Source: Verrucomicrobiota bacterium
Lineage (GTDB): Bacteria > Verrucomicrobiota > Verrucomicrobiia > Verrucomicrobiales > DEV007
Length of the DNA: 46,319 bases
Reading direction: 5' to 3'
NCBI GenBank assembly: GCA_030625775.1
Contig: DAOUQC010000035.1
Span: forward strand, 1 to 46,319
Numbering within the stretch: the first letter of the stretch is position 1; each line of letters opens with the position of its first letter. This document shows positions 24,810 to 38,868 of this stretch, one piece after another. A program made the position numbers and the translations under genes. The notes beneath the pieces were generated by a model. That model was not told the DNA's origin, searched no databases, and worked only from the letters and a program-made list of their open reading frames with translations.

Positions 24810-27200
24810 TCACAAACTCTCAACATTGACGGTGACCGAAGTGCTGTAACCGTTGGAGGGGGAAGTGGCGGTGAGTCGGTGGGTTCCAGGTTTGAGGATG
24901 GCGATAGAGGGGGCATCCGGGTGGTGTTCGATCTGCAAGGTTGGGGAAGTCCAGTGGATGCGGGATGTAGGCGAATTTGTCTTGAGGGTGAAAATTTGTC
25001 CTCCATTGGGAAGGTCGTCATCGAGGTAGACTACAGTGTTGGCCATGGGGCGGAGGATCTGGAAAGGTGTATTTTCTCCGGGAGAGTTTGCGGGGGGAAG
25101 GATGGAAGCTCGATTATGCAAGGCATGTTTAGCCTCAGAAAACCAGGCAGCGTATCGGGCCGGGAGCAGAGTGCGTCCCTGTTGGTCATAATCCAAAGGA
25201 GAGGCGAAGGAGGGGTGGTTTTGGTCGCGGAAAATCTCCAAGCGGCTATGTCGTGGATGGATAGGCGTGGCATTGGGTTCAGGGGAGGTCAAACGTTTGC
25301 CGTTCAGCGGATCTATACGGGCAGAGGTGATATGAGCCGGGCGGGTGTACCAGCTTGGTTTGCGAGAGGGGTCGGAGTAAAGATGGGCAAAAATGTCGTG
25401 AAAGATAGGCCCGGCTCCGATGACACCCGAGATATGGGGCATGGGCTGGTTGTCAAAGCAACCGACCCAGACACCGACGGTGTATTGGGGGGTGAAGCCG
25501 ACAGTCCAGTTGTCTCTGAAGTCGGTGCTGGTTCCGGTTTTGCAGGCTACTTTGAAGGGTAGGTTGAGTGGTGAATTTAAACCGAAAGCAGATACCCGGG
25601 CTTGTCGATCACTGAGAATGTCAGCAAGGATGTAACAGGCATCGGGATCAAATAATTCGCGAGTGACAAGTGGGGCGGGTTCGGAGACTGATGATAAACG
25701 GTAGTCGGCATGGCGCCCGAGGCGGGCAAGGCAGGCGTAGGCATTGCTCAGCTCCAGCAAACGGACTTCTGCTGTGCCGATGGTCAGGCCCAGGCCGTAA
25801 AAAGAAGGCTTTTTGTTCAAGCTGGTCAGGCCCAGGTCAAGCAGTGTCTGGTGGAGTACGGAAGCTCCGCCCAGGTCATTGAGCAGGCGAATGGCGGGGA
25901 TGTTGAGGGAAGTCGCCAGCGCTTCACGCAGAGTCACCGGGCCACGAAAACGGCGGTCATAATTAACTGGCCGGTAAGCGCCGGTGGGGGTCATGAATTC
26001 AAGCGGCAGGTCATCGAGGATGGTGGCGGCCGAGTCTCCGCGTTCCAAGGCCATCAGGTAGGTGAAAGGCTTGAGCGCCGATCCGGGTGAGCGAGCTGTC
26101 CAGGCACCGTTGATCTGCCCGCTGCCCGAGTTGAAATAACTGCGTGAACCAACGAGGCTCAGCACTTCGCCGGAGCTATTGTCGATAATCACCGCGGCGG
26201 CTTGAAGGGAAGAGGCGTGAGAACTGCTTTGCTCCAGGAGCTGAAGTTGACTGCGAATGGATTGCTCGACAAAATGTTGTAGGTGAAGATCGATGGTGGT
26301 TTTGATAGGAGCTGAGCTTTTGTCGGTCGATTCGATTGAGGCAGGGGGGGCATTCAAAATCAGGTCGACCAGATGAGGGGCTTCAAAGGTGGATTGGCTT
26401 GAGGATCGGATTTGAATGTCCTGGCTGACAGCATGTTGATATTGTTGCTGGGTGATTCTGCCGGTTTTCAGCATGCGCTTGAGCACCCAGCTCTGGCGTT
26501 TTTTGGCAGATTCCATATGGCGATAGGGGTTGAATCTGCTTGGTTGGTTGGGCAGCCCTGCCAACAGACTGCATTCAGCGAGGGAAAGATCGGATAAGGG
26601 TTTATTGAAATAGCCTCTGGCCGCCGCCCGGCAACCGGTGAGCAGATTCCCGTAAGGCAAGCGGTTCAGGTAGGCGACGAGAATTTCATCTTTGCTCCAT
26701 GCCATTTCGAGTTTTCGGGCGTAAAGGGTTTCGACGACCTTGTTGCGGACATTGCGCGGTTTTGAGGGTGAGGTGATTTTGATGAGTTGTTGACTGATGG
26801 TGGAGGCCCCTGAAACCAGGCGGCCTGCCCGGAGCGAATCATATCCAGCGCGTGCGATTCCAAGGGGGTCGATGCCGTTGTGCTGTCTGAAGCGCGCATC
26901 TTCGACTGCCAGAGTGGCTTCGATGAGGTTGCCAGGAATTTCTTCCAGGGTGGCTGGTGAATCGATGGCCAGGTCTTTATTGAGTAAACGTCGCAAAGAG
27001 GTGCCGTTGCGATCGGTAAAATACTGTCCTGGCTCCTGGGGCTTGGTTAGTTCCTCAGGCAGGCTGAAAAACAGCGGGGCGATATAGATAAATATAAAAC
27101 CAGTGACGAGCAGGGATAAGGCCGATGCAAGCACGAAGCGCAGTCCCGGGTGGAGTCCGGTGAGCCATGAATAGAGCATGTGGAAGTTGTGTTTTTTCAT
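24810..27200 (-). CDS. pbpC: Penicillin-binding protein 1C
   Basis: This 796-residue bifunctional class A PBP has one membrane anchor (about 20-45). The GT51 transglycosylase domain shows E100-D101 in VEDARFRQHNGIDP, then GASTISQQLIK. The transpeptidase has S374-A-L-K377, S431-L-N433 and K554-T-G556. The C-terminal part after residue 690 resembles the BiPBP_C beta domain typical of PBP1C. It polymerises and crosslinks peptidoglycan outside the membrane. The start overlaps the stop of the alpha-2-macroglobulin gene by 4 bp (ATGA). The pbpC/alpha-2-macroglobulin pair is a well-known bacterial arrangement, thought to link wall repair to protease trapping. Confidence 0.94.
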   Translation of the reverse strand: MKKHNFHMLYSWLTGLHPGLRFVLASALSLLVTGFIFIYIAPLFFSLPEELTKPQEPGQYFTDRNGTSLRRLLNKDLAIDSPATLEEIPGNLIEATLAVEDARFRQHNGIDPLGIARAGYDSLRAGRLVSGASTISQQLIKITSPSKPRNVRNKVVETLYARKLEMAWSKDEILVAYLNRLPYGNLLTGCRAAARGYFNKPLSDLSLAECSLLAGLPNQPSRFNPYRHMESAKKRQSWVLKRMLKTGRITQQQYQHAVSQDIQIRSSSQSTFEAPHLVDLILNAPPASIESTDKSSAPIKTTIDLHLQHFVEQSIRSQLQLLEQSSSHASSLQAAAVIIDNSSGEVLSLVGSRSYFNSGSGQINGAWTARSPGSALKPFTYLMALERGDSAATILDDLPLEFMTPTGAYRPVNYDRRFRGPVTLREALATSLNIPAIRLLNDLGGASVLHQTLLDLGLTSLNKKPSFYGLGLTIGTAEVRLLELSNAYACLARLGRHADYRLSSVSEPAPLVTRELFDPDACYILADILSDRQARVSAFGLNSPLNLPFKVACKTGTSTDFRDNWTVGFTPQYTVGVWVGCFDNQPMPHISGVIGAGPIFHDIFAHLYSDPSRKPSWYTRPAHITSARIDPLNGKRLTSPEPNATPIHPRHSRLEIFRDQNHPSFASPLDYDQQGRTLLPARYAAWFSEAKHALHNRASILPPANSPGENTPFQILRPMANTVVYLDDDLPNGGQIFTLKTNSPTSRIHWTSPTLQIEHHPDAPSIAILKPGTHRLTATSPSNGYSTSVTVNVESL

Positions 27201-30200
27201 CGGACAGCGATAGGAGTGGGGGCTTTGCCTGGGGCTTTCATTGCGGATGCACTGAGGCGTTGAGTGGCAGAGAGTCCGTAGCGCTGGGGTTCATACATGG
27301 CCTCTATTTTTGCCGGTGGTGCGGTGGCGGAACCTGGAGCAATGACGCGGGCGAGATACTGGATCACGTAGTCCCCCCCCTGATAAAGATAATCCTGGAA
27401 AAAGAGGATACGGTCTTTTCTGATCTCGGTGTGATTGGTGTAGAGGCGTTTCCACTTGCCTTGTCGGGCCGATTTTGAAGTCTGTGATTTGAAGGATGGA
27501 TTGATCGCTTCAAAAATGGAGGGCAGACGATCTTCAATGGCAAGGTAGTGTTGTTTGTCATCGATGGTTGTATGGAGGGTGACGAGGATGAGGTCGCCAA
27601 TGCCCAAGTTCTCTGCAGGAGTGAGAGAGCCGTCGTTTTTAATCTGCTGATAGGTGCGGCGAATGGAGAAACCGTGATCCTGTGCCTCAAAGGGGAGCAG
27701 TTCAGGCTGAGTGGAAACTTCAATATGGGCGTAGAGCCGGGCGTTGGCTTTTGTGCTGACTTCCAGGCTTGGATTTTTTTGCCCAGCGGTGAAAGGGAAT
27801 TGGTATTCCTGACTGCCCGGGGATTGGTCAAATTTTACCTGCTGTTTGTTGCCAGCGAATTGAATCTGGAAGCTTTGGCCACTTTTGAGAAGGGATGTTT
27901 CCTTGCTGTGCTGTGCCATGGCGAGCATGGGCCAGGCATTGTTGTAGGTGCTGCCCCAGACATGGGGGCCGTGTTTCAATTTGAGCAGACGTCCGGCCAG
28001 TGCATCGGCCTGCTCTCCCTCGGGCTGAAGTTTTGTCCAGGCGAGCAGTTGAGTGGCTAGGGTGTAAGGTTTGCCGTACCAGGTGACCTGGCTGTTGGGG
28101 GCATCGGTTTGTGCTTCGGTGAGCAGTTGTCGAGCATGGGCTTGATTGCTTGTTGAGGCCTCGGATTCGAGCATGGCCAGCGCCAGCAGTGCCCGGGCTT
28201 CGAGGGGGAGTTGCCGGCGTTTTTCGAACAGCAAATCCTGATAACCGGTTTCCGGGTGGCCTGCCAATGAGAGGGTGTAAACTGCCAGGCAACGTTGGGA
28301 GAGGGAATAAGCATCGGTGATTTTTCCAGAATTCTGGAGCTGGCTGGAAAGGTATTTCCACAGCGCCTTGAGGCTGTCTGCAGGCAGCTCGGTTCCGCTT
28401 TTTTCGGCCAAAGCCAGAGCCATTCCGCCGTAGGCGCTGCCCCAGAGAACCGAGTCAGAAGATCCGGGCCAATAGGCCAGTCCACCATCCTGTGTTTGCA
28501 TGGATAAAAGGCGTTGGGCCCCGTGGGAAATCGCATCGGAAATTTCCTCGGGGCTGCGATTGAGAGCGGGCAGGGTCTGGTTGAAATTTTGTGTGGATAA
28601 CCAGGGCAGGGTGCTGGAAGTGGTTTGCTCGACGCAGCCGTAAGGGTATTTCAAGAGGTAATCCACCGCATCCAGAGCTTCGAGCATTCTCGAGTTGGAG
28701 AAAGTGACACGAATAGATCCTTGTCCCTTGAACATATCAGAGTCCACTGCATCAAGCAGGTTGAAGGAGTGAGAGGGCTTGGAATTTTTATGATACAAAC
28801 TTTGCCGATGGGAATGCCGTAACAGGGGGATGGGGTAAGTCACAGGGATTGATGATTCGATCTGGTCAGAGAGATTGTCATGGTTCAAGGCGCGGGCGCT
28901 CCAGATCCATTTTGCGTCACCTACTCCGGTGAAAATGATGGGTAAATTGAGCGATGATGTTTTTCCGGCAGCGATATGAACCTTCTGGATTCTGATCAGT
29001 TCATCGGTTTTGGGAAGCAAGCCGCCGGACGAAGAGGTTGGGACGAACGCCGGTTGCAGGTTGAGGAATTTTGCAGTGGAATCGAGTTTAACCATCACCT
29101 CCAGGTCCAGGTTTTTTTTGGTGTTGTTATGGAGGATTGCGCTGAGGTCGATCTGATCCCCGACATTGCCAAAAACCGGTAGAGAGGGTTCGAGGGTGAG
29201 AGGTTTCTGGACAACAATTTTGTCAGTGGCGGAAGCAAAACGATTTTCGTGATTCACCACTGCGATAACCCGGTATTCGGTGAGATTATCCGGAGCTGGA
29301 AAAGAGGCCCGGATTTTCCCGTCATTGTCGGTAATGAGAGAGCCATTCCAGTAGGCCAGGGCTTTGAAATTCTTGCGGATGCGGGTGAGTCCACCGCCTT
29401 CGCTTTCGCCGCCGCCGCCGATGACGTAACCCTTATTGGCAAAATCCAGATCGTTGGGATTTTCGGGCAGTAGAGCTGAGATGGACTGGCCGGTGTAAAC
29501 AGAAAGGGGATAGGGGGCATGAAACAATGCCGACGGATCCGGGTTGCTGTATCCGGTCAGGCTGAGCACCCCTTCGTCGACGGCATACAAGGTCACTTCA
29601 GCATTGGAGACAGGTTGTTTCAGGTGATCAGTGATGTGCGCGCTGAGTTCGACCACTTGCCCGGGTTTAACGGTTTTTGGAGGAGCGGAGAGTTCAATCG
29701 AAAGTTTTGCCGACAGATCATCCACCTGCAATTGTGCGTAACCGAGGCGATACTCGGTATCAGGATGCTGGTGAGTGCTGTCTACAAGACCCCGGATGAT
29801 GAGCACCGAGACAAACACATTGGGTGCATCTTCATCTTCGATCGGGATATCAATGACGCTTTGCTGGGTGGAAATTTTCCGGGTGAAGGAGCGGCGTATG
29901 CCCTTCCGCTCCACGGTGACCAGCGCGTGGCCCGTGATGGGGGTTTTTACCAGAAGTTTGGCAGTTTCTCCGGTTGCATAATTCTTTTTGTCAGGAATCA
30001 CATCAATGCGCATGCCATCGTGTCGTGACCAGTTTGGGTTTTGGTCTTCTCCATAGACGGAGACTTTTTGTTTGGTGACGATACGGCGGTCGTTGGCATC
30101 CCGCGCAGTGATGGTAAAAAGGTAGTCGCCGCTTTCCTCAAGCTGTAACCGGGTGCTTGAGGGTAGCACTGTGCCGGTTTCCGGATGGGTGCTCATCACG

Positions 30201-32671
30201 ATTTCGAGCTTTTTCTTCAGGACGGGGATTTGTTGGCTTTCGTTGCGGTGGGAGATGCTTCCTCCGGCACCGCGAACCTTCACCGTGTTCCAGACAATGC
30301 GTTCCACCCTGAGTTCGGCAGCAATGGTTTCGGGGTAGTATTTTCCATCCTGGCCAATGGAAGCCAGGGAGAGGGAAAAGGCCTCCTTTGCTCGCAGGGT
30401 TTCGTTGGGCAGTAACATGCCCAGATAAAAGTCCGAGCTGTGAATCATGAGGGAGGAATTGGTGGCGACTGTTTGCTGATTGATATCAGTGATTTCAGTG
30501 TTGAGATACAGTCGCAGAGGCAAGGGGGAGTCGCTTGGAGGAGGCAGGACCAGTTGGATTTTCCCGTTGCCTTTCGAAGAAAGGTCAAGAGTTTCGCTGA
30601 GTGAGATAGAGGAGGAAGAACGCGTTGTGCTGTCACCGAAAATGTAATCATCAAAATCGCTTGTCCGGGGGTAGTGTGTGCCTGCGGAGGCATGCCAGCG
30701 GAGACGTGCTGATGACAGGGCTTTGCCCATGAAATATTTTGCTGAAACAGGGATGGTGATTTTGTCCTCCGGCTTGCTCGGAAGCTGATAGTGGTCTTTT
30801 GTTGCGAGCTTGATCTCGAAGGTGTTCGGCCGGTATTCAGCAACCAGGAAGGAATGGCTGAAAATGTTTTGCCGATTCCGGCGGGTGGATTTGGAGGAGG
30901 GGTTGAAATCGATGCGGATCCGAAAGCGACCCAGTGTGTTGTCGGGCAGTTTGATGTCCTGATCGATGCTGCCGTATTTTGAAACCGTTATTTTACGGCT
31001 TAAAATAGTCCGGTTGCGGCTGTCGCTGACAGTGAGCTTTGCCAGAGTCTGGTCAGCGGAAGGGGGGAGCAACTGTTTGTCGTCGGTGAGGCGGGTCAGG
31101 CATTTCAGGTGGACGATTTCGCCTGGTTTATAAACGGGGCGGTCAGTGAAGATCATGGTGCGTCGATGTGTGTCGCCGGCATCGTTGTAGCGGTAGGGGA
31201 CATTGAAACGCCAGAGGCTCAGGGTATCCATGTCTTCATCAATTTCGAGAATGTGTCGATCTTCTTTGAAACGTATTTCCAGCCAGCGGCCACGATCCGT
31301 CGCCTCGGGAGCCTGGAAATCGATAGTGGTGAGTCCCTGGTTGTCGGTTCTGCTTTGCTGGAGAGGAAGGGCATCATTATCGAAGAGGGTAATGCTTGCG
31401 TTGGGCAGAGCCTGGCCGCTTCGTTGCGAGAAGGCATAGAGGAGGGTTTGCTGCTTGGATTTTTTCCAGGCCAGACCGATGTCAGTGAGTTGGATCAGGG
31501 CTTGTGCGCCCACTGCGTCACTGTAGCGAACTTTGGAATCGGCTTCTGCGCAGAGGTAATAGGCCCCTGGTGCATCTGTTTTGAGAAGTGAGTTCCAGTT
31601 CAGTTCAATTTTTTCGCTGCGATCGAGCACACTGTTTTGTTGCCAGTTTTTTTTGTAGATGGTGCGTCCTGGAACCATCTCGAAGGGGATGCTGCTGCTT
31701 CGATTGAGGTAGGTGCTGTAGCCCCGGAGAGCAAAGATGAGATCTTTTCCCTCTAGTTGTTTGATGCGAATCGAGGTGTTTTTCGTATTACCGACAGTGA
31801 CGGAAAAATGTTTCTTCCCTGAGAGACTTTGAGCGGTGCTGAAGGCGGGCAGGTGGACAAAGGCTTCGTTGGGTGAAAAAACCAGGCTGTGCTGACTTGG
31901 CTGTTGGCAAAAAGTCTGATCCGAGGCGGGCAGGCCTGCATTAACGGTGACCAGATATTTTTGTTCGTAGCGAAAATCACCGGTGATACCGATACCGGAT
32001 TGGTAACGATGGAATTTGAGGGAATTGGGTTTCGGTGAAATAGTCACATATTGAGGGATCGTTTCAGGAGTGATGATCTGGTGCAGCTTTTTATTAAAAT
32101 TAAGCTGAATGGAATGGACCCCATCGTAAGGGTTGTTGGTTAGGGCATTGCGCAAGCTGAAGTCCCTGAGCCGTCCCAGCCTGCTGACCAGATCCGTCTC
32201 CACCTTCGTTTTTTCATCACTGCTGCTGAAACCTTTGGAAATGACAAGATTCCATCGATGGCCGGTGGGGAGTTGGTTCAAGGGTTGGACCAGGAGGAAA
32301 TGGGAGAGTGAAAAATTCTCTTTGTGCTCCCTGTCCCGGGGGTAGGGCTGCAAGTTGAGGGCGTATTTTTTCGAGGGGCGGCTGAGTTTAGCTGGGATTT
32401 TCAGATTCGGAGAGGATCCGTTGGAGAAGTGGATCTTCTGCGAGGCCTGATTGATTTTGACCGGGACGTTGAAGCGTAGCAGGACGGTTGGTTGGGGGGT
32501 GAGGGGGTTTGAGTAGGATGAATAATAGGAGGGGTAGCGTTCAAAGGTGAGTTTGTTTGAGGGAGCTGTGGCTGCAGAGAGCGAACAGGAATGGCAAAAC
32601 ACGGGGATGACTGCCGTGACCGTGTAGAGCAAATTTTTGAGAGTAGGTCGCAGGAGTGTGGTGAATTGCAT
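27197..32671 (-). CDS. yfhM: Bacterial alpha-2-macroglobulin (thioester type)
   Basis: 1824 residues from ATG 32671. That start begins a signal-type leader (MQFTTLLRPTLKNLLYTVTA), whereas the frame upstream to 32749 is polar and adds nothing. The protein has serial macroglobulin beta domains, including FTDRPVYKPGEIVHLKCLTR, typical of MG3. An AVDEGVLSLTGY motif precedes the bait region, and LTEYRVIAVV the thioester domain. The thioester motif C1346-V-E-Q is intact in YPYGCVEQTTSSTLPWL, with the helical thioester domain after it. Such proteins trap attacking proteases in the periplasm. The stop overlaps pbpC. A lipid attachment site is unclear because the cysteines near residue 27 are not in a standard lipobox. 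Confidence 0.93.
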   Translation of the reverse strand: MQFTTLLRPTLKNLLYTVTAVIPVFCHSCSLSAATAPSNKLTFERYPSYYSSYSNPLTPQPTVLLRFNVPVKINQASQKIHFSNGSSPNLKIPAKLSRPSKKYALNLQPYPRDREHKENFSLSHFLLVQPLNQLPTGHRWNLVISKGFSSSDEKTKVETDLVSRLGRLRDFSLRNALTNNPYDGVHSIQLNFNKKLHQIITPETIPQYVTISPKPNSLKFHRYQSGIGITGDFRYEQKYLVTVNAGLPASDQTFCQQPSQHSLVFSPNEAFVHLPAFSTAQSLSGKKHFSVTVGNTKNTSIRIKQLEGKDLIFALRGYSTYLNRSSSIPFEMVPGRTIYKKNWQQNSVLDRSEKIELNWNSLLKTDAPGAYYLCAEADSKVRYSDAVGAQALIQLTDIGLAWKKSKQQTLLYAFSQRSGQALPNASITLFDNDALPLQQSRTDNQGLTTIDFQAPEATDRGRWLEIRFKEDRHILEIDEDMDTLSLWRFNVPYRYNDAGDTHRRTMIFTDRPVYKPGEIVHLKCLTRLTDDKQLLPPSADQTLAKLTVSDSRNRTILSRKITVSKYGSIDQDIKLPDNTLGRFRIRIDFNPSSKSTRRNRQNIFSHSFLVAEYRPNTFEIKLATKDHYQLPSKPEDKITIPVSAKYFMGKALSSARLRWHASAGTHYPRTSDFDDYIFGDSTTRSSSSISLSETLDLSSKGNGKIQLVLPPPSDSPLPLRLYLNTEITDINQQTVATNSSLMIHSSDFYLGMLLPNETLRAKEAFSLSLASIGQDGKYYPETIAAELRVERIVWNTVKVRGAGGSISHRNESQQIPVLKKKLEIVMSTHPETGTVLPSSTRLQLEESGDYLFTITARDANDRRIVTKQKVSVYGEDQNPNWSRHDGMRIDVIPDKKNYATGETAKLLVKTPITGHALVTVERKGIRRSFTRKISTQQSVIDIPIEDEDAPNVFVSVLIIRGLVDSTHQHPDTEYRLGYAQLQVDDLSAKLSIELSAPPKTVKPGQVVELSAHITDHLKQPVSNAEVTLYAVDEGVLSLTGYSNPDPSALFHAPYPLSVYTGQSISALLPENPNDLDFANKGYVIGGGGESEGGGLTRIRKNFKALAYWNGSLITDNDGKIRASFPAPDNLTEYRVIAVVNHENRFASATDKIVVQKPLTLEPSLPVFGNVGDQIDLSAILHNNTKKNLDLEVMVKLDSTAKFLNLQPAFVPTSSSGGLLPKTDELIRIQKVHIAAGKTSSLNLPIIFTGVGDAKWIWSARALNHDNLSDQIESSIPVTYPIPLLRHSHRQSLYHKNSKPSHSFNLLDAVDSDMFKGQGSIRVTFSNSRMLEALDAVDYLLKYPYGCVEQTTSSTLPWLSTQNFNQTLPALNRSPEEISDAISHGAQRLLSMQTQDGGLAYWPGSSDSVLWGSAYGGMALALAEKSGTELPADSLKALWKYLSSQLQNSGKITDAYSLSQRCLAVYTLSLAGHPETGYQDLLFEKRRQLPLEARALLALAMLESEASTSNQAHARQLLTEAQTDAPNSQVTWYGKPYTLATQLLAWTKLQPEGEQADALAGRLLKLKHGPHVWGSTYNNAWPMLAMAQHSKETSLLKSGQSFQIQFAGNKQQVKFDQSPGSQEYQFPFTAGQKNPSLEVSTKANARLYAHIEVSTQPELLPFEAQDHGFSIRRTYQQIKNDGSLTPAENLGIGDLILVTLHTTIDDKQHYLAIEDRLPSIFEAINPSFKSQTSKSARQGKWKRLYTNHTEIRKDRILFFQDYLYQGGDYVIQYLARVIAPGSATAPPAKIEAMYEPQRYGLSATQRLSASAMKAPGKAPTPIAVR

Positions 32672-32801
32672 TGGAGTGGTATTTGTATTTTGGGAGACAG
32701 GGATGCTCTTGTTGACAGGAATACGAGGGGCTGGGCAGGGGTCTTTCAAAAAAAGTGAAAGAGTTCACGAATCCGGTGATCCGTGGTAGAGTGGGGCTCA
32801 A

Positions 32802-33482
32802 ATGCCAGTGAAAAAACCACAGCAGCAGGAAAGCTTGAACGCAGGCTATGAGCGGACGCGTAAAAGTCTGATCGACCGGCTTGACGATTGGGAGGATCAG
32901 AAGGCCTGGAATGAGTTCTATCGAACCTATTGGCGCTTGATCCACCGGTTTTCTATTAAAGCAGGTTTGCCCAGCGATGAAGCTTTTGATGTGGTTCAGG
33001 AAACCGTGCTTACAATTGCGAAACAGTGGAAAAAGGGGAAGACCTATGACGCGGGAAAAGGGTCATTTAAGAACTGGCTGATGAATGTGGCTCGTTGGAG
33101 GATTGCTGATCAGTTTAGAAAGCGGAAAAAAAATCCAGCGGCTTTGGCGGTAGCCTCTGGGTTTCATCGTTCGGATTCTGATGAATCCACCGGGCGGGGG
33201 ACGGCCACCATTGAGAGATTCGCTGATCCGAATGATGACCTTGAAAAAGTGTGGGATGTGGAATGGAGTAAAAACCTGACGAAAGTGGCCCGTAACAAGG
33301 TAAAAGAAAAGGTGTCACCGAAGCAGTTCCAGATTTTTGACTGTTATGTCATGAAGGAATGGACAGCGGCAAAAGTCAGAGAGGAATTGGGTGTCAGCAT
33401 GGCCCAGGTATATCTGGCAAAACACCGGGTAGGGGGATTGATGAAGAAAGAGGTGGAGGCTTTGAATGAACAGAAATTTTGA
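32802..33482 (+). CDS. ECF-type RNA polymerase sigma factor
   Basis: 226 residues. Region 2 is AWNEFYRTYWRLIHRFSIKAGLPSDEAFDVVQETVLTIA, followed by GSFKNWLMNVARWRIADQFRKRKK. Region 4 is SPKQFQIFDCYVMKEWTAAKVREELGVSMAQVYLAKHRV with a helix-turn-helix. The linker (about 115-150) is long and polar. ECF factors of this look in Verrucomicrobiota and Planctomycetota are often encoded beside Ser/Thr kinases rather than an anti-sigma factor, and here a kinase follows about 30-160 bp downstream. It would redirect RNA polymerase to an unknown regulon, perhaps controlled by phosphorylation. It diverges from the alpha-2-macroglobulin gene. Confidence 0.88.
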   Translation: MPVKKPQQQESLNAGYERTRKSLIDRLDDWEDQKAWNEFYRTYWRLIHRFSIKAGLPSDEAFDVVQETVLTIAKQWKKGKTYDAGKGSFKNWLMNVARWRIADQFRKRKKNPAALAVASGFHRSDSDESTGRGTATIERFADPNDDLEKVWDVEWSKNLTKVARNKVKEKVSPKQFQIFDCYVMKEWTAAKVREELGVSMAQVYLAKHRVGGLMKKEVEALNEQKF

Positions 33483-33514
33483 ACAATGGCAGAGCTAGAG
33501 GTAACGATGAATAA

Positions 33515-33646
33515 GGCGGGCGTTTTGAACGTTTAATAACCAGGTGTGAGTTCACTATAAACAGGCTTATCGAAAGGAAAGACAACAGGCCGGAAATTCC
33601 GGATTATGAGATCCTGCGCAGGATAGGCGGAGGTTCGTACGGAGAG
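33515..33646 (+). other. In-frame kinase N-lobe coding sequence upstream of the first usual start
   Basis: The frame of the following kinase stays open from the TAA at 33512-33514. Its translation just before GTG 33647 reads PEIPDYEILRRIGGGSYGE, the conserved first strand and glycine-rich loop of a protein kinase. No ATG, GTG or TTG lies in frame here. A short frame at 33486-33536 (MAELEVTMNKAGVLNV) is a plausible true N-terminus joined by a -1 shift between 33515 and 33533. Confidence 0.75.
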
Positions 33647-36262
33647 GTGTGGCTGGCTCGGAGCGTAACGGGATTGATGCGGGCGGTGAAGGTGGTTCAG
33701 CGTAAGGATTTTGATCTCGAACGCACCTATCAGAGGGAGTTCGAAGGGATCAAGAAATACGAGAATGTTTCCAAGGGGCATCCGGCTTTGGTGGATGTGT
33801 TGCATGTGGGTCGGAATAAGGAAAAGCAATTTTATTTTTATGTCATGGAGTTGGGGGACGACCAGTTTCACGGCCAGGAGATTGACCCCAACTCGTATGA
33901 GCCTCGCACTTTGAGCTCCGATCTACGGGCGCGGCAGACCACGGATGTCCAGAACGGGGTGACTTTGGGGATTAGAATCGCTGGTGCCCTGGGGCATTTG
34001 CACCAGAACGGATTGACTCATAGGGATGTGAAACCTTCGAATGTCATTTTTGTGAATGGGAAAGCCAAGCTGGCGGATATTGGTTTGGTGGCTCACAGCG
34101 GTCAGCGTTCTTTTGTCGGTACCGAAGGTTATATGCCACCGGAGGGTCCGGGCACGGCATCGGGTGATCTTTACAGCCTGGCGATGGTTCTCTATGAAGT
34201 AGCGACGGGGAAGGATCGGCTGGATTTTCCTGAGTTGCCAACCAATCTTGAGTTGTCGCCGACAGTGAACCGTGATGAGTGGAGAATGTTGAATGCTGTC
34301 ATTTGCCGAGCGGGAGCTCCCAATGCCCGCAAACGTTACTCGAGTGCGGAATCACTGACGCTTGCGTTGGAAGCCGTAAGGGAGGAGGAAGAAAAATCAG
34401 AGGCTCGCTGGCATGGGCGGGCTTGGATGGCGGCAGCGCTATTGTTTGTTTTGTTTTTGGGCGGGGCGGGAGCCTTTGTTTATTACAGTATCCCGCCAGC
34501 GTCAGCCCCCCCCCTCGAGCTCAGCAGTGTTGAGGTGGATGATGATGACATTGATCCGGTCAGGCAGACAGCAATGTCTAGCGGGGGGAATACACCTGTT
34601 ATACGTGATTTTTTTCCTGCAGGAGGAGAGCTGTCTGTGTTTGCGGGTCTCAAAAGCATGCCTACAGAAACGGGACAAAAAGAGGGAGGGAATACGGCAT
34701 CATTTGACTCAGGGACGGGATCGGACAAACCACCCAAACCCACGCCTGAGAAAAAACCGGAAATGGCTGAGTTCAAAGTATTCAGCCACCCGATTGGTGC
34801 GGTTGTGATGCATGAGGGGAAGGAGGTCGGGAGGACACCGACTCGTTTTTTGAGCTTCCCCCCCGGTCAGGTTAAATTGGTGCTGCGGCTTCCGGGCTAT
34901 CAGGAGAAGGTATTGTCCAGGAACCTGGTTGTCGGGCGTCAGTATGAAAATGCTACCATGATACATGACCGGCGTCCGATCGAGGGAAGTCTGTGGGTGA
35001 ATCATTTGGGGGTTCGTTTTGAAGCCGGGGACGGCACCCATGTTTCAAGTGAAATCTCCCGTGAGCAGTTCGGCTTGTTTCTCGAAAAGACAAACAGGCC
35101 TTTTGCGGTGGCCGGGAGACAGGGCCTGGTATTGGCTACAGAAGAGGATCAGTGGGCTTTCTGTGACTGGATGACCCAGCAGGACCGGGTGGAAGGTTTT
35201 CTGGGGGAGAATCAATATCACCGCCCACAAATTTCGGGAACTCCGGGCAGGGAAGGAACTTTTTTTTGTGTGATTGATAATGTGTTCGGGCGGGCTTTGG
35301 TGAATAGCGGGCCACCAGGGGCAGGTGTCTACATAAGGGGACAATTGATTGGCCGGACGCCGATGGAGTTGAGAGAGGTCCGGGCCGGGCCGTTTACTGT
35401 TACTTTGAAAAAAGAGGGGCATGCTGATGAAACCCGTAGCGGTAAGATTCAACAAGATAGCGAATTACTAGTTGGTGTGGATTTGCAGAGGGATGGCAGT
35501 GTGATTTTTGGCGAGGCTTGGAAAAACAGCATGGAAATGGAATTTGTCCCTGTCGGTAAAAGTTTAATGGTATCGATTTATGAAACCCGGGTGATGGATT
35601 TTGATGTCTATCGGCATGATGTTGCTCCGGCTGGCGGGAAACCTGCGGTTGGCTTTGATCAGGACCCGGATCATCCAGTGGTAGGGGTGAGCCTTAAGGA
35701 TGCCAAAAATTTTTGTCAGTGGTTGACTGAAAAAGAGAGGGTTTTAGGGAGGATAGGGCAGGATGAGGAGTATCGTTTGCCGACTGACCTGGAGTGGAGC
35801 CAGATGGCGGAATTGAGTGATGAGACCGGGGAGACTCCAGAACGCCGGGACAGCAAGGTGCGTGAACATTTTCCATGGGGAGCCGACTGGCCACCACCGC
35901 CGGGAAGCGGGAATTTTGCAGATAAAAGTGCCAAAGGCAGATACGTCTTGAAAGGCTATGATGATGGTTTTGAAAAAACATCGCCGGTGGGGGAATACAA
36001 AGCAAACTCCCTGGGTATTTATGATTTGGCGGGGAATGTCTGGGAGTGGGTGAGTGATGCCTACAGCGGTGATACGGGGCTGCAGGTGGTGCGTGGCGGT
36101 GCGTGGAATGTGTCGGAGCGGGATTTGTTGCTGACATCGTATCGGAACGCTGTGCCGCCGACGATACGGGAAGGGTTGTATGGCTTTCGCTGTGTTCTTT
36201 CGAAGGTTCCTGAAGGTGGAGGACAAAGCACTGTTTCAGTGTCAAATGACCGCAGGCGATAA
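33647..36262 (+). CDS. Membrane Ser/Thr kinase with PEGA and SUMF1 domains
   Basis: 871 residues from GTG 33647, but the real protein must start upstream (see 33515-33646). The kinase domain has Lys15 (AVKVV), H125-R-D-V-K-P-S-N132, and the metal motif as D144-I-G rather than DFG. A transmembrane helix is at about 260-281. Outside are PEGA-like repeats near 375-440 (GKEVGRTPTRFLSFPPGQVKL) and 547-615 (GQLIGRTPMELREVRAGPF). A complete SUMF1/formylglycine-enzyme-like domain runs from about 628 to 858 (YRLPTDLEWSQMA, GIYDLAGNVWEWVSD, VVRGGAWN). Between the PEGA repeats lies a degenerate half SUMF1 copy. It probably senses an extracytoplasmic signal and phosphorylates cytoplasmic targets such as the sigma factor upstream. 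Confidence 0.87.
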   Translation: MWLARSVTGLMRAVKVVQRKDFDLERTYQREFEGIKKYENVSKGHPALVDVLHVGRNKEKQFYFYVMELGDDQFHGQEIDPNSYEPRTLSSDLRARQTTDVQNGVTLGIRIAGALGHLHQNGLTHRDVKPSNVIFVNGKAKLADIGLVAHSGQRSFVGTEGYMPPEGPGTASGDLYSLAMVLYEVATGKDRLDFPELPTNLELSPTVNRDEWRMLNAVICRAGAPNARKRYSSAESLTLALEAVREEEEKSEARWHGRAWMAAALLFVLFLGGAGAFVYYSIPPASAPPLELSSVEVDDDDIDPVRQTAMSSGGNTPVIRDFFPAGGELSVFAGLKSMPTETGQKEGGNTASFDSGTGSDKPPKPTPEKKPEMAEFKVFSHPIGAVVMHEGKEVGRTPTRFLSFPPGQVKLVLRLPGYQEKVLSRNLVVGRQYENATMIHDRRPIEGSLWVNHLGVRFEAGDGTHVSSEISREQFGLFLEKTNRPFAVAGRQGLVLATEEDQWAFCDWMTQQDRVEGFLGENQYHRPQISGTPGREGTFFCVIDNVFGRALVNSGPPGAGVYIRGQLIGRTPMELREVRAGPFTVTLKKEGHADETRSGKIQQDSELLVGVDLQRDGSVIFGEAWKNSMEMEFVPVGKSLMVSIYETRVMDFDVYRHDVAPAGGKPAVGFDQDPDHPVVGVSLKDAKNFCQWLTEKERVLGRIGQDEEYRLPTDLEWSQMAELSDETGETPERRDSKVREHFPWGADWPPPPGSGNFADKSAKGRYVLKGYDDGFEKTSPVGEYKANSLGIYDLAGNVWEWVSDAYSGDTGLQVVRGGAWNVSERDLLLTSYRNAVPPTIREGLYGFRCVLSKVPEGGGQSTVSVSNDRRR

Positions 36263-37398: not shown

Positions 37399-38868
37399 TT
37401 AACGCTTTCGGGGAGGTGGGCGTGTCCCACCGCGGTGAGGCGGGAAGCCTGGAGGAGGGGGAGGAAGGGTATTGCTTGGAGTCGTTTTAGTGCTCGTAGA
37501 AGAGGGAGGGGTTTGTTTTTCAGGCCACTGGGCGGATGAAGCTGAGGTGGGTGTTGTGCTTGTAGTCGGGGGGGGAGTTGAAGTTGCGGTAGAGGTTGTG
37601 GTTTGCGTGATCATCCGGGAAATTCTTGGCCACGAGAAAAATGTGATTAAGCCCAATACAACTATGATTAGTAAGACGACTCCCATCGTCAGAACTGTTT
37701 TTGCCGCGGCGTAAAGGTCTGGCCAGAATGTGGAAGGTTCCCTTTGGTTAACGCTTGTTTGTGCGGCGGTCTGGGCAGCTTCGGTGGCAGCGCGTGCGGC
37801 TTCTATGACGGCAGCTTGGATGTCGGCTTGAGTGGCGGGCTTCAGTTCATCAGGCACAGCTACGGGTTTTGCGGTGGTAGATGCCCAGGGAAGGGACTGG
37901 TCAGGCGGTGATGCCTGTGGGGCGGCTTCCGGAGCGGATGTCGTGCTGGGTGCCGGGGCACCGATATCGAGTATGGCGGTGGAGAGTTCATTGGCATCCT
38001 GGAAGCGGTCATTGGGATCAGTGGCCATTGAACGCAGGATCAAGTGATCCAGACGTGGATCCAGGCCAGCCACCTTTTTGGAAGGCAAATCAAAAGCTCC
38101 GCGTGGTGCTTTGCCGGTGAGCATTTCATAAATCAGTACGCCAATTGCATAGAGGTCGGCTCGTTGGTCAACCGGAGAGCCCGATACCATTTGTTCCGGG
38201 GCGAGGTAGTCGATAGTGCCCATGACAATATGGGTGCCCGTAAGAGAAGGTTCCACCGTGGTGTCGGTGGAGACAATTTTAGCGAGGCCAAAATCGGCAA
38301 TTTTGACGTTGCCGTCCAAATTGAGCATGATGTTGGCAGGCTTGATATCCCGGTGGACGATGTTTTGCTCGTGGGCGTATTGCAGCGCTTCACAAATCTG
38401 GGTAACCACGGCAAGGATTTGATTTACGTCCAGAGTGGCGGTTTTGATCAGGTAGTTCAGATCAGCCCCTTCGACATACTCCATGACAATGTAGAGCAGG
38501 GGCTCCTCAGTGCTGGATTCCGTTTCGCCAAATTCAAAAACGGTGATAATCCCGGGGTGGTGGAGTCGGGCCATCGCCCTGGCTTCCCGTTTGAAGCGTT
38601 CCTTGAATTCGTATTTATCATCCAGGCCAGTCGGCAGGATTTTGATGGCTACGATCCGGTCGAGTCCAGGTTGACGAGCTTTGTAAACAGCTCCCATACC
38701 GCCGGCCCCTATTTGATCGAGTATTTCGTATTGAGGCAGAAGCTGTTGAAGGTCTTTGACGCTGGGTGCGGTGAACCCGCCCATGCTTGGTGGGGTTTTA
38801 TCGGTGGCAGCGATGGTAGACGGGTCGGACACAGGGCTCGGAAATATAGTTTCAGGCAATAAAAACAA
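37399..38868 (-). CDS. Membrane-anchored Ser/Thr protein kinase, Pro/Thr-rich tail
   Basis: 489 residues from a TTG at 38868. The kinase domain (about 47-310) has IGAGGMGAVYKA, Lys76 (AIKIL), H172-R-D-I-K-P-A-N179 and D192-F-G, so all catalytic residues are present. An Ala-rich linker leads to one transmembrane helix (about 389-413). After it comes a low-complexity Thr/Ser/Pro tail ending GGTRPPPRKR, outside the membrane. No PASTA or other sensor domain is visible. The start is uncertain: no Shine-Dalgarno precedes the TTG, and Met29 (MGGFTAPSVKD) would also keep the whole kinase domain. It converges with yjbQ. Confidence 0.9.
   Translation of the reverse strand: MFLLPETIFPSPVSDPSTIAATDKTPPSMGGFTAPSVKDLQQLLPQYEILDQIGAGGMGAVYKARQPGLDRIVAIKILPTGLDDKYEFKERFKREARAMARLHHPGIITVFEFGETESSTEEPLLYIVMEYVEGADLNYLIKTATLDVNQILAVVTQICEALQYAHEQNIVHRDIKPANIMLNLDGNVKIADFGLAKIVSTDTTVEPSLTGTHIVMGTIDYLAPEQMVSGSPVDQRADLYAIGVLIYEMLTGKAPRGAFDLPSKKVAGLDPRLDHLILRSMATDPNDRFQDANELSTAILDIGAPAPSTTSAPEAAPQASPPDQSLPWASTTAKPVAVPDELKPATQADIQAAVIEAARAATEAAQTAAQTSVNQREPSTFWPDLYAAAKTVLTMGVVLLIIVVLGLITFFSWPRISRMITQTTTSTATSTPPPTTSTTPTSASSAQWPEKQTPPSSTSTKTTPSNTLPPPPPGFPPHRGGTRPPPRKR

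Follow-up and report, generated by a model that had tools for sequence, protein, structure and literature searches.

A conserved AUC codon as the proposed start of a Hanks-type kinase gene in Verrucomicrobiota

How is a Hanks-type kinase made from a reading frame that has no canonical start codon ahead of its ATP-binding loop? The question is raised by the window, the whole 46,319-nt stretch analysed here, a contig of a draft genome in 158 contigs. Its frame 33515-36262 encodes GGRFERLITRCEFTINRLIERKDNRPEIPDYEILRRIGGGSYGEVW and has no ATG, GTG or TTG ahead of GTG 33647. We consider it very likely, from comparison of orthologous sequences, that the kinase is translated from a conserved AUC at 33569 behind a sigma70-type promoter, without a Shine-Dalgarno (SD) sequence and probably from a leaderless mRNA.

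The kinase frame and its neighbourhood

A preliminary description had reported that ATG, GTG and TTG are all missing from the kinase frame before the glycine-rich loop. The frame was checked from its upstream stop onwards and this proved correct, as did the positions given for that stop and for a short ATG frame (Table 1), for ATT 33596-33598 and for GTG 33647-33649. This GTG is the Val of GEVW in the loop, so a start there would delete the loop, and gene callers limited to ATG, GTG and TTG would truncate the kinase past it. The encoded protein combines a Hanks-type kinase domain (Pfam Pkinase, E 1.4e-23), a hydrophobic, transmembrane-like segment, PEGA repeats (E 2.3e-18) and an FGE-sulfatase domain (E 6.8e-31). 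A second Hanks-type kinase gene lies about 1.1 kb downstream on the opposite strand (37399-38868, -). Also on the minus strand, a frame of 1850 aa at 27197-32749 bears a GCVEQ motif, and we take it to resemble a bacterial alpha-2-macroglobulin.

Immediately upstream is an ECF-type sigma factor gene. The two genes are adjacent in the window genus, in G017 and in most outgroups; in these outgroups they overlap or abut, with TTG, ATG or GTG codons available. In g2, g10, g12, g13 and g18 the sigma gene has a separate genomic location, and most genomes, also those with the pair split, retain one close copy of it. From the ancestral adjacency we infer that the kinase may act on the neighbouring sigma factor.

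Table 1. Features of the kinase locus, with one infC example from a related genome
Feature	Position	Strand	Basis
ECF-type sigma factor gene, adjacent	32802..33482	+	profile match and neighbourhood comparison
Short ATG frame, 16 aa, just 3' of sigma stop	33486..33536	+	not coding-conserved
In-frame stop TAA, 5' of kinase	33512..33514	+	read from sequence
TTAATA, weak candidate -35 box, 17 nt before -10	33533..33538	+	promoter scoring
TATAAA, predicted -10 box, 7 nt before ATC	33556..33561	+	score 7.4, p=0.017
ATC, proposed kinase start codon	33569..33571	+	orthologue conservation, onset of coding periodicity
Kinase CDS from AUC start, 897 aa	33569..36262	+	translation
Protein kinase domain	33605..34216	+	Pfam PF00069, residues 31-234 of open frame
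Glycine-rich loop IGGGSYGEVW	33623..33652	+	read in frame
PEGA domain, better of two stretches	35297..35488	+	PF08308
FGE-sulfatase (SUMF1-like) domain	35648..36196	+	PF03781
infC example L170	G000:C119:46835-47311	-	near-cognate starts read in related genomes

Conservation of the AUC codon and its promoter

Two congeneric species in separate assemblies (the named congeners are Verrucomicrobiota metagenome-assembled genomes) both carry the same ATC. One of the two (L012/L041) has no canonical start at all, and the other (L042) offers just a TTG, located 138 nt ahead of the loop in the region of the sigma gene. More widely, 69 distinct orthologues and one duplicate record were read, with one close kinase match per genome in the family. 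The homologous codon is ATC (32), ATT (2) or ATA (1) in 35 of the 69, spread over four genera; these counts do not represent independent events, since the orthologues share ancestry and the rows were anchored on the presence of ATC, ATT or ATA. The AUC-type codon stands exactly 18 codons before IGGGSYGE in 31 of the 35, and the four displaced copies are shifted by whole codons (-57 in G089 and G020, -69 in G091 and G092). In 23 AUC-type records, one of them the duplicate, the frame contains no canonical start from the upstream stop up to the kinase; in many g2 orthologues that stop (TAG or TAA at -66) forms part of the promoter -10 box. Compared with general Ile codon usage, ATC is only moderately over-represented at the start place.

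All AUC-type rows fall within a single clade of 42 rows that includes the window gene (support 100/98), and the start-type label changes six times on the tree, compared with a mean of 23.3 when shuffled. Six of the seven clade members of other types have a substitute close by: G042 has AAC in place of ATC with a GTG directly after it, G017 has an ATG start immediately 3' of the sigma stop, G014 and G090 have GTG/ATG nearby, and G094 and G098 have ATC/ATT 9 and 6 nt further in. The seventh, G097, has an assembly gap. The simplest history would be a single gain of the AUC start followed by few losses, or six label changes if every exception is counted. An AUC start appears, on this comparison, to be common to about 35 related Verrucomicrobiota species, and judged by the same alignments the missing canonical start is neither chance nor an assembly fault.

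When the 35 sequences are aligned on ATC, the consensus reads TGGAAA-N17-TANNNT-N5-[CT]ATC, with TGGAAA at -34..-29, TANNNT at -11..-6 and a pyrimidine at -1 in 31 of 35. The sigma70-type promoter score is 7.15 at the ATC, compared with 4.2-4.8 at all other offsets and 5.2 in non-AUC control genes; in tests against shuffled sequences, 33 of the 35 individually reach p<0.05. About 5-7 nt lie between the end of the -10 box and the ATC, which places the expected transcription start on the A of AUC or next to it; the fixed promoter spacing looked for in leaderless genes was found, strongly so in g2 and g12. Reading the promoter as ECF-type (GGAAA...CGTT) was dropped because the spacing would be too short; the sigma70 spacing of 16-18 fits. 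No conserved purine-rich SD was found when the 20 nt preceding the ATC were compared across the 35 sequences of the alignment; the columns conserved there are those of the -10 box. The first 45 nt are weakly folded in all 35 sequences, with a mean folding energy of -3.4 kcal/mol versus -11.1 kcal/mol downstream, a difference uncontrolled for composition.

In the window itself the predicted -10 box belongs to a block that is identical in congener G002. The -35 box of the window genus is weak and unconserved among congeners, whereas its g2 equivalent, TGGAAA, is well conserved. Given this weak -35 box and the promoter score of congener G001, which is not significant, the mRNA may carry a short leader in the window genus. 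The kinase mRNA is probably leaderless, the promoter spacing arguing strongly for this in g2 and moderately in the window genus.

A rather unlikely alternative keeps the AUC start and gives the mRNA a leader, either as a sigma-kinase transcript or as a short leader, with SD-independent initiation in an unstructured start region. The sigma gene of the window genus still ends 86 nt upstream on the same strand, the -35 boxes there are weak, the genomes are SD-scarce, and about 9-12 nt separate the -10 box from the AUC/AUU in G094 and G098, all of which would suit a leader; yet g2, g10 and g12 have no sigma gene in the 1.5 kb upstream, and in most orthologues a -35/-10 pair lies at a fixed distance from the ATC.

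The coding boundary and other ways to begin the frame

Substitution rates at the three codon positions, taken from pairs of close relatives, are 0.38/0.44/0.44 upstream (-33..-1), 0.14/0.13/0.33 in codons 2-9 and 0.05/0.04/0.43 in the kinase. Pooled Fisher tests of codon periodicity, in which the pairs are not independent, gave p values of 3e-11 for codons 2-9 and 0.21 for the upstream sequence. The codon periodicity of substitutions starts at ATC 33569, and the sequence before it shows none. Positions 1 and 2 of the ATC are invariant, which says little alone because the rows were anchored on ATC, ATT or ATA; the periodicity and promoter results are independent of this anchoring.

The preliminary description had offered a rare start codon, a -1 frameshift or a sequence error as explanations, and had suggested comparing orthologue N-termini. 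That comparison favours the first, through the common ATC, and speaks against the other two. It had the kind of start right and the codon wrong, having named ATT 33596. This is codon 10, just 5' of the kinase domain, and it encodes Ile in 30 of 31 orthologues, but it is ATT in only 15 of 31 (variants are ATC, ATA and, in G038, GTT), and codons 2-9 before it already evolve as coding sequence. The same Ile-Pro is present in an orthologue whose start is an upstream ATG (G017), and is thus kept for the protein. A start at ATT 33596 or at some other near-cognate codon is on these grounds very improbable.

A -1 frameshift would fuse the short ATG frame to the kinase frame, and we find this scarcely credible. 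The two frames do overlap at 33515-33536 and their offset is equal (mod 3 = 2) in all three congeners, but no X_XXY_YYZ slip site occurs within the overlap, candidate slip sites and short-ORF peptides are unconserved even inside the genus (the peptides of the three congeners, of 16, 24 and 11 aa, have no similarity), codon periodicity is missing upstream, and 13 of the 35 AUC-type orthologues lack any ORF that overlaps in a different frame. An ATG after the sigma stop (TTGAACAATG, 33476-33489) is retained in the window, G002 and G001, and the short ORF is not; the ATG and its short frame may be left over from the kinase start of the ancestral operon, as seen in G017. That the sequence is misread or misassembled, or the gene decaying, has next to no probability even in a draft genome, as the same architecture recurs in 35 distinct orthologues, independent assemblies of many species exclude an error, and the kinase, which is full length in most orthologues, evolves under strong purifying selection.

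Initiation in these genomes and in known systems

Near-cognate initiation is to be expected in these cells, since infC, the gene for IF3, has AUC, AUA or AUU as its first codon in the majority of the 29 related genomes examined (L148-L176), often with GGAGG upstream. IF3 proteins of the AUC-kinase clade score 159-175 bits with the infC model, against 175-203 bits elsewhere; the lower-scoring loci (L169-L176) are the infC genes of G017, G000, G013, G002, G003, G001, G011 and G014. The clade IF3 looks shorter in an N-domain loop (for example YKEVNIVMQT versus VDGETNHQIGVMT), which may be just a lineage mark. SD-like motifs are not enriched before predicted genes of G000 (19 versus 18) or G096 (13 versus 13) in stretches L177-L216, and PMC10783764 lists some Verrucomicrobia among SD-scarce bacteria. 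In G096 the region about 9-15 nt upstream of ATG is enriched in TANNNT, which suggests further leaderless genes. A scan for start-less genes covered about 0.79 Mb of G096 and G000; its codon-score version missed both positive controls, and a looser version yielded many false candidates. An initiator-like tRNA with a GAU anticodon was considered and rejected: among the 30 best tRNA loci typed by ARAGORN, with 13 weaker hits outside them, there are three CAU tRNAs and one GAU tRNA, the latter beside tRNA-Ala.

IF3 discriminates against AUN starts and, when abundant, against leaderless mRNAs (PMC9410913, PMC9031893, PMC10158994), so that little protein should be made from a leaderless AUC mRNA, in an amount that varies with IF3 and 70S ribosome levels. 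In vitro, IF3 disfavours AUC when the anticodon pairs weakly with it (PMC10158994), and leaderless translation in E. coli strongly prefers AUG (reviewed in PMC9031893). With the leaderless AUC start that we favour, a sigma70-type promoter located downstream of the sigma gene and ahead of the kinase would drive an mRNA beginning at the AUC or a few nt from it. Pairing with the initiator tRNA would be limited to positions 1 and 2 of the codon, with a mismatch at position 3, so that initiation would be weak and sensitive to the IF3 level and 70S availability, as for infC. The outcome that we infer is a low supply, dependent on the translation state, of a membrane kinase ancestrally paired with an ECF sigma factor. 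More tentatively, and with less confidence than doubt, we propose that the leaderless near-cognate AUC serves as a translational sensor, so that kinase output reads the IF3 level and free 70S ribosomes through a kind of start shared with infC.

Near-cognate starts are known from infC and pcnB of E. coli (AUU) and from infC of S. aureus (AUA) (PMC9410913, PMC13009471). Like these genes the kinase has a conserved near-cognate AUN start, which limits expression in infC and pcnB; infC and pcnB differ in that a translation factor rather than a signalling kinase is concerned, and in several infC genes of the genomes studied here an SD-like GGAGG precedes the AUC, whereas the kinase mRNA is predicted to be leaderless and without an SD. 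In common with the AUN-start class, the kinase has a conserved AUN and no AUG, GUG or UUG at its coding boundary; the strong or extended SD of the S. aureus members was not found. Conserved AUA or AUU starts also occur in ccpN of S. aureus and B. subtilis and in cvfC1 of S. aureus (PMC13009471), where the weak codon lowers expression and is supported by an extended SD; the kinase shares the conserved weak codon, but it has no SD and its codon is AUC. Programmed -1 frameshifting is marked by a slip site and an upstream frame that are both conserved in relatives, and neither is conserved in the kinase family. The locus resembles the ECF43 pairs EcfP-PknT and EcfK-PknS (PMC13147305) in having a kinase gene beside an ECF sigma gene. 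Unlike the kinases of those pairs, the window kinase bears PEGA and FGE-sulfatase domains, and the region 2.2 motif of its sigma neighbour, EAFDVVQE, has acidic residues (judged by eye) where ECF43 has the uncharged QTTA type.

With bacterial leaderless genes (PMC9031893; for mycobacteria, PMC4633059) the kinase shares a -10 box 5-7 nt before the start, the lack of an SD and a start predicted to lie at the mRNA 5' end or close to it; leaderless genes described so far start with AUG, GUG being efficient in some actinobacteria, whereas the kinase has AUC. Our search, which covered open-access papers and few subscription ones, turned up no conserved leaderless AUC start. Both near-cognate starts and leaderless genes have precedents; what appears to be new, within that literature, is their conserved combination in a kinase. 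If our reading is true, an AUC kept at a leaderless-type start in about 35 species would be a natural counter-example to the rules drawn from E. coli, and the AUC-start kinases would offer a ready system for testing start-codon choice in SD-poor bacteria.
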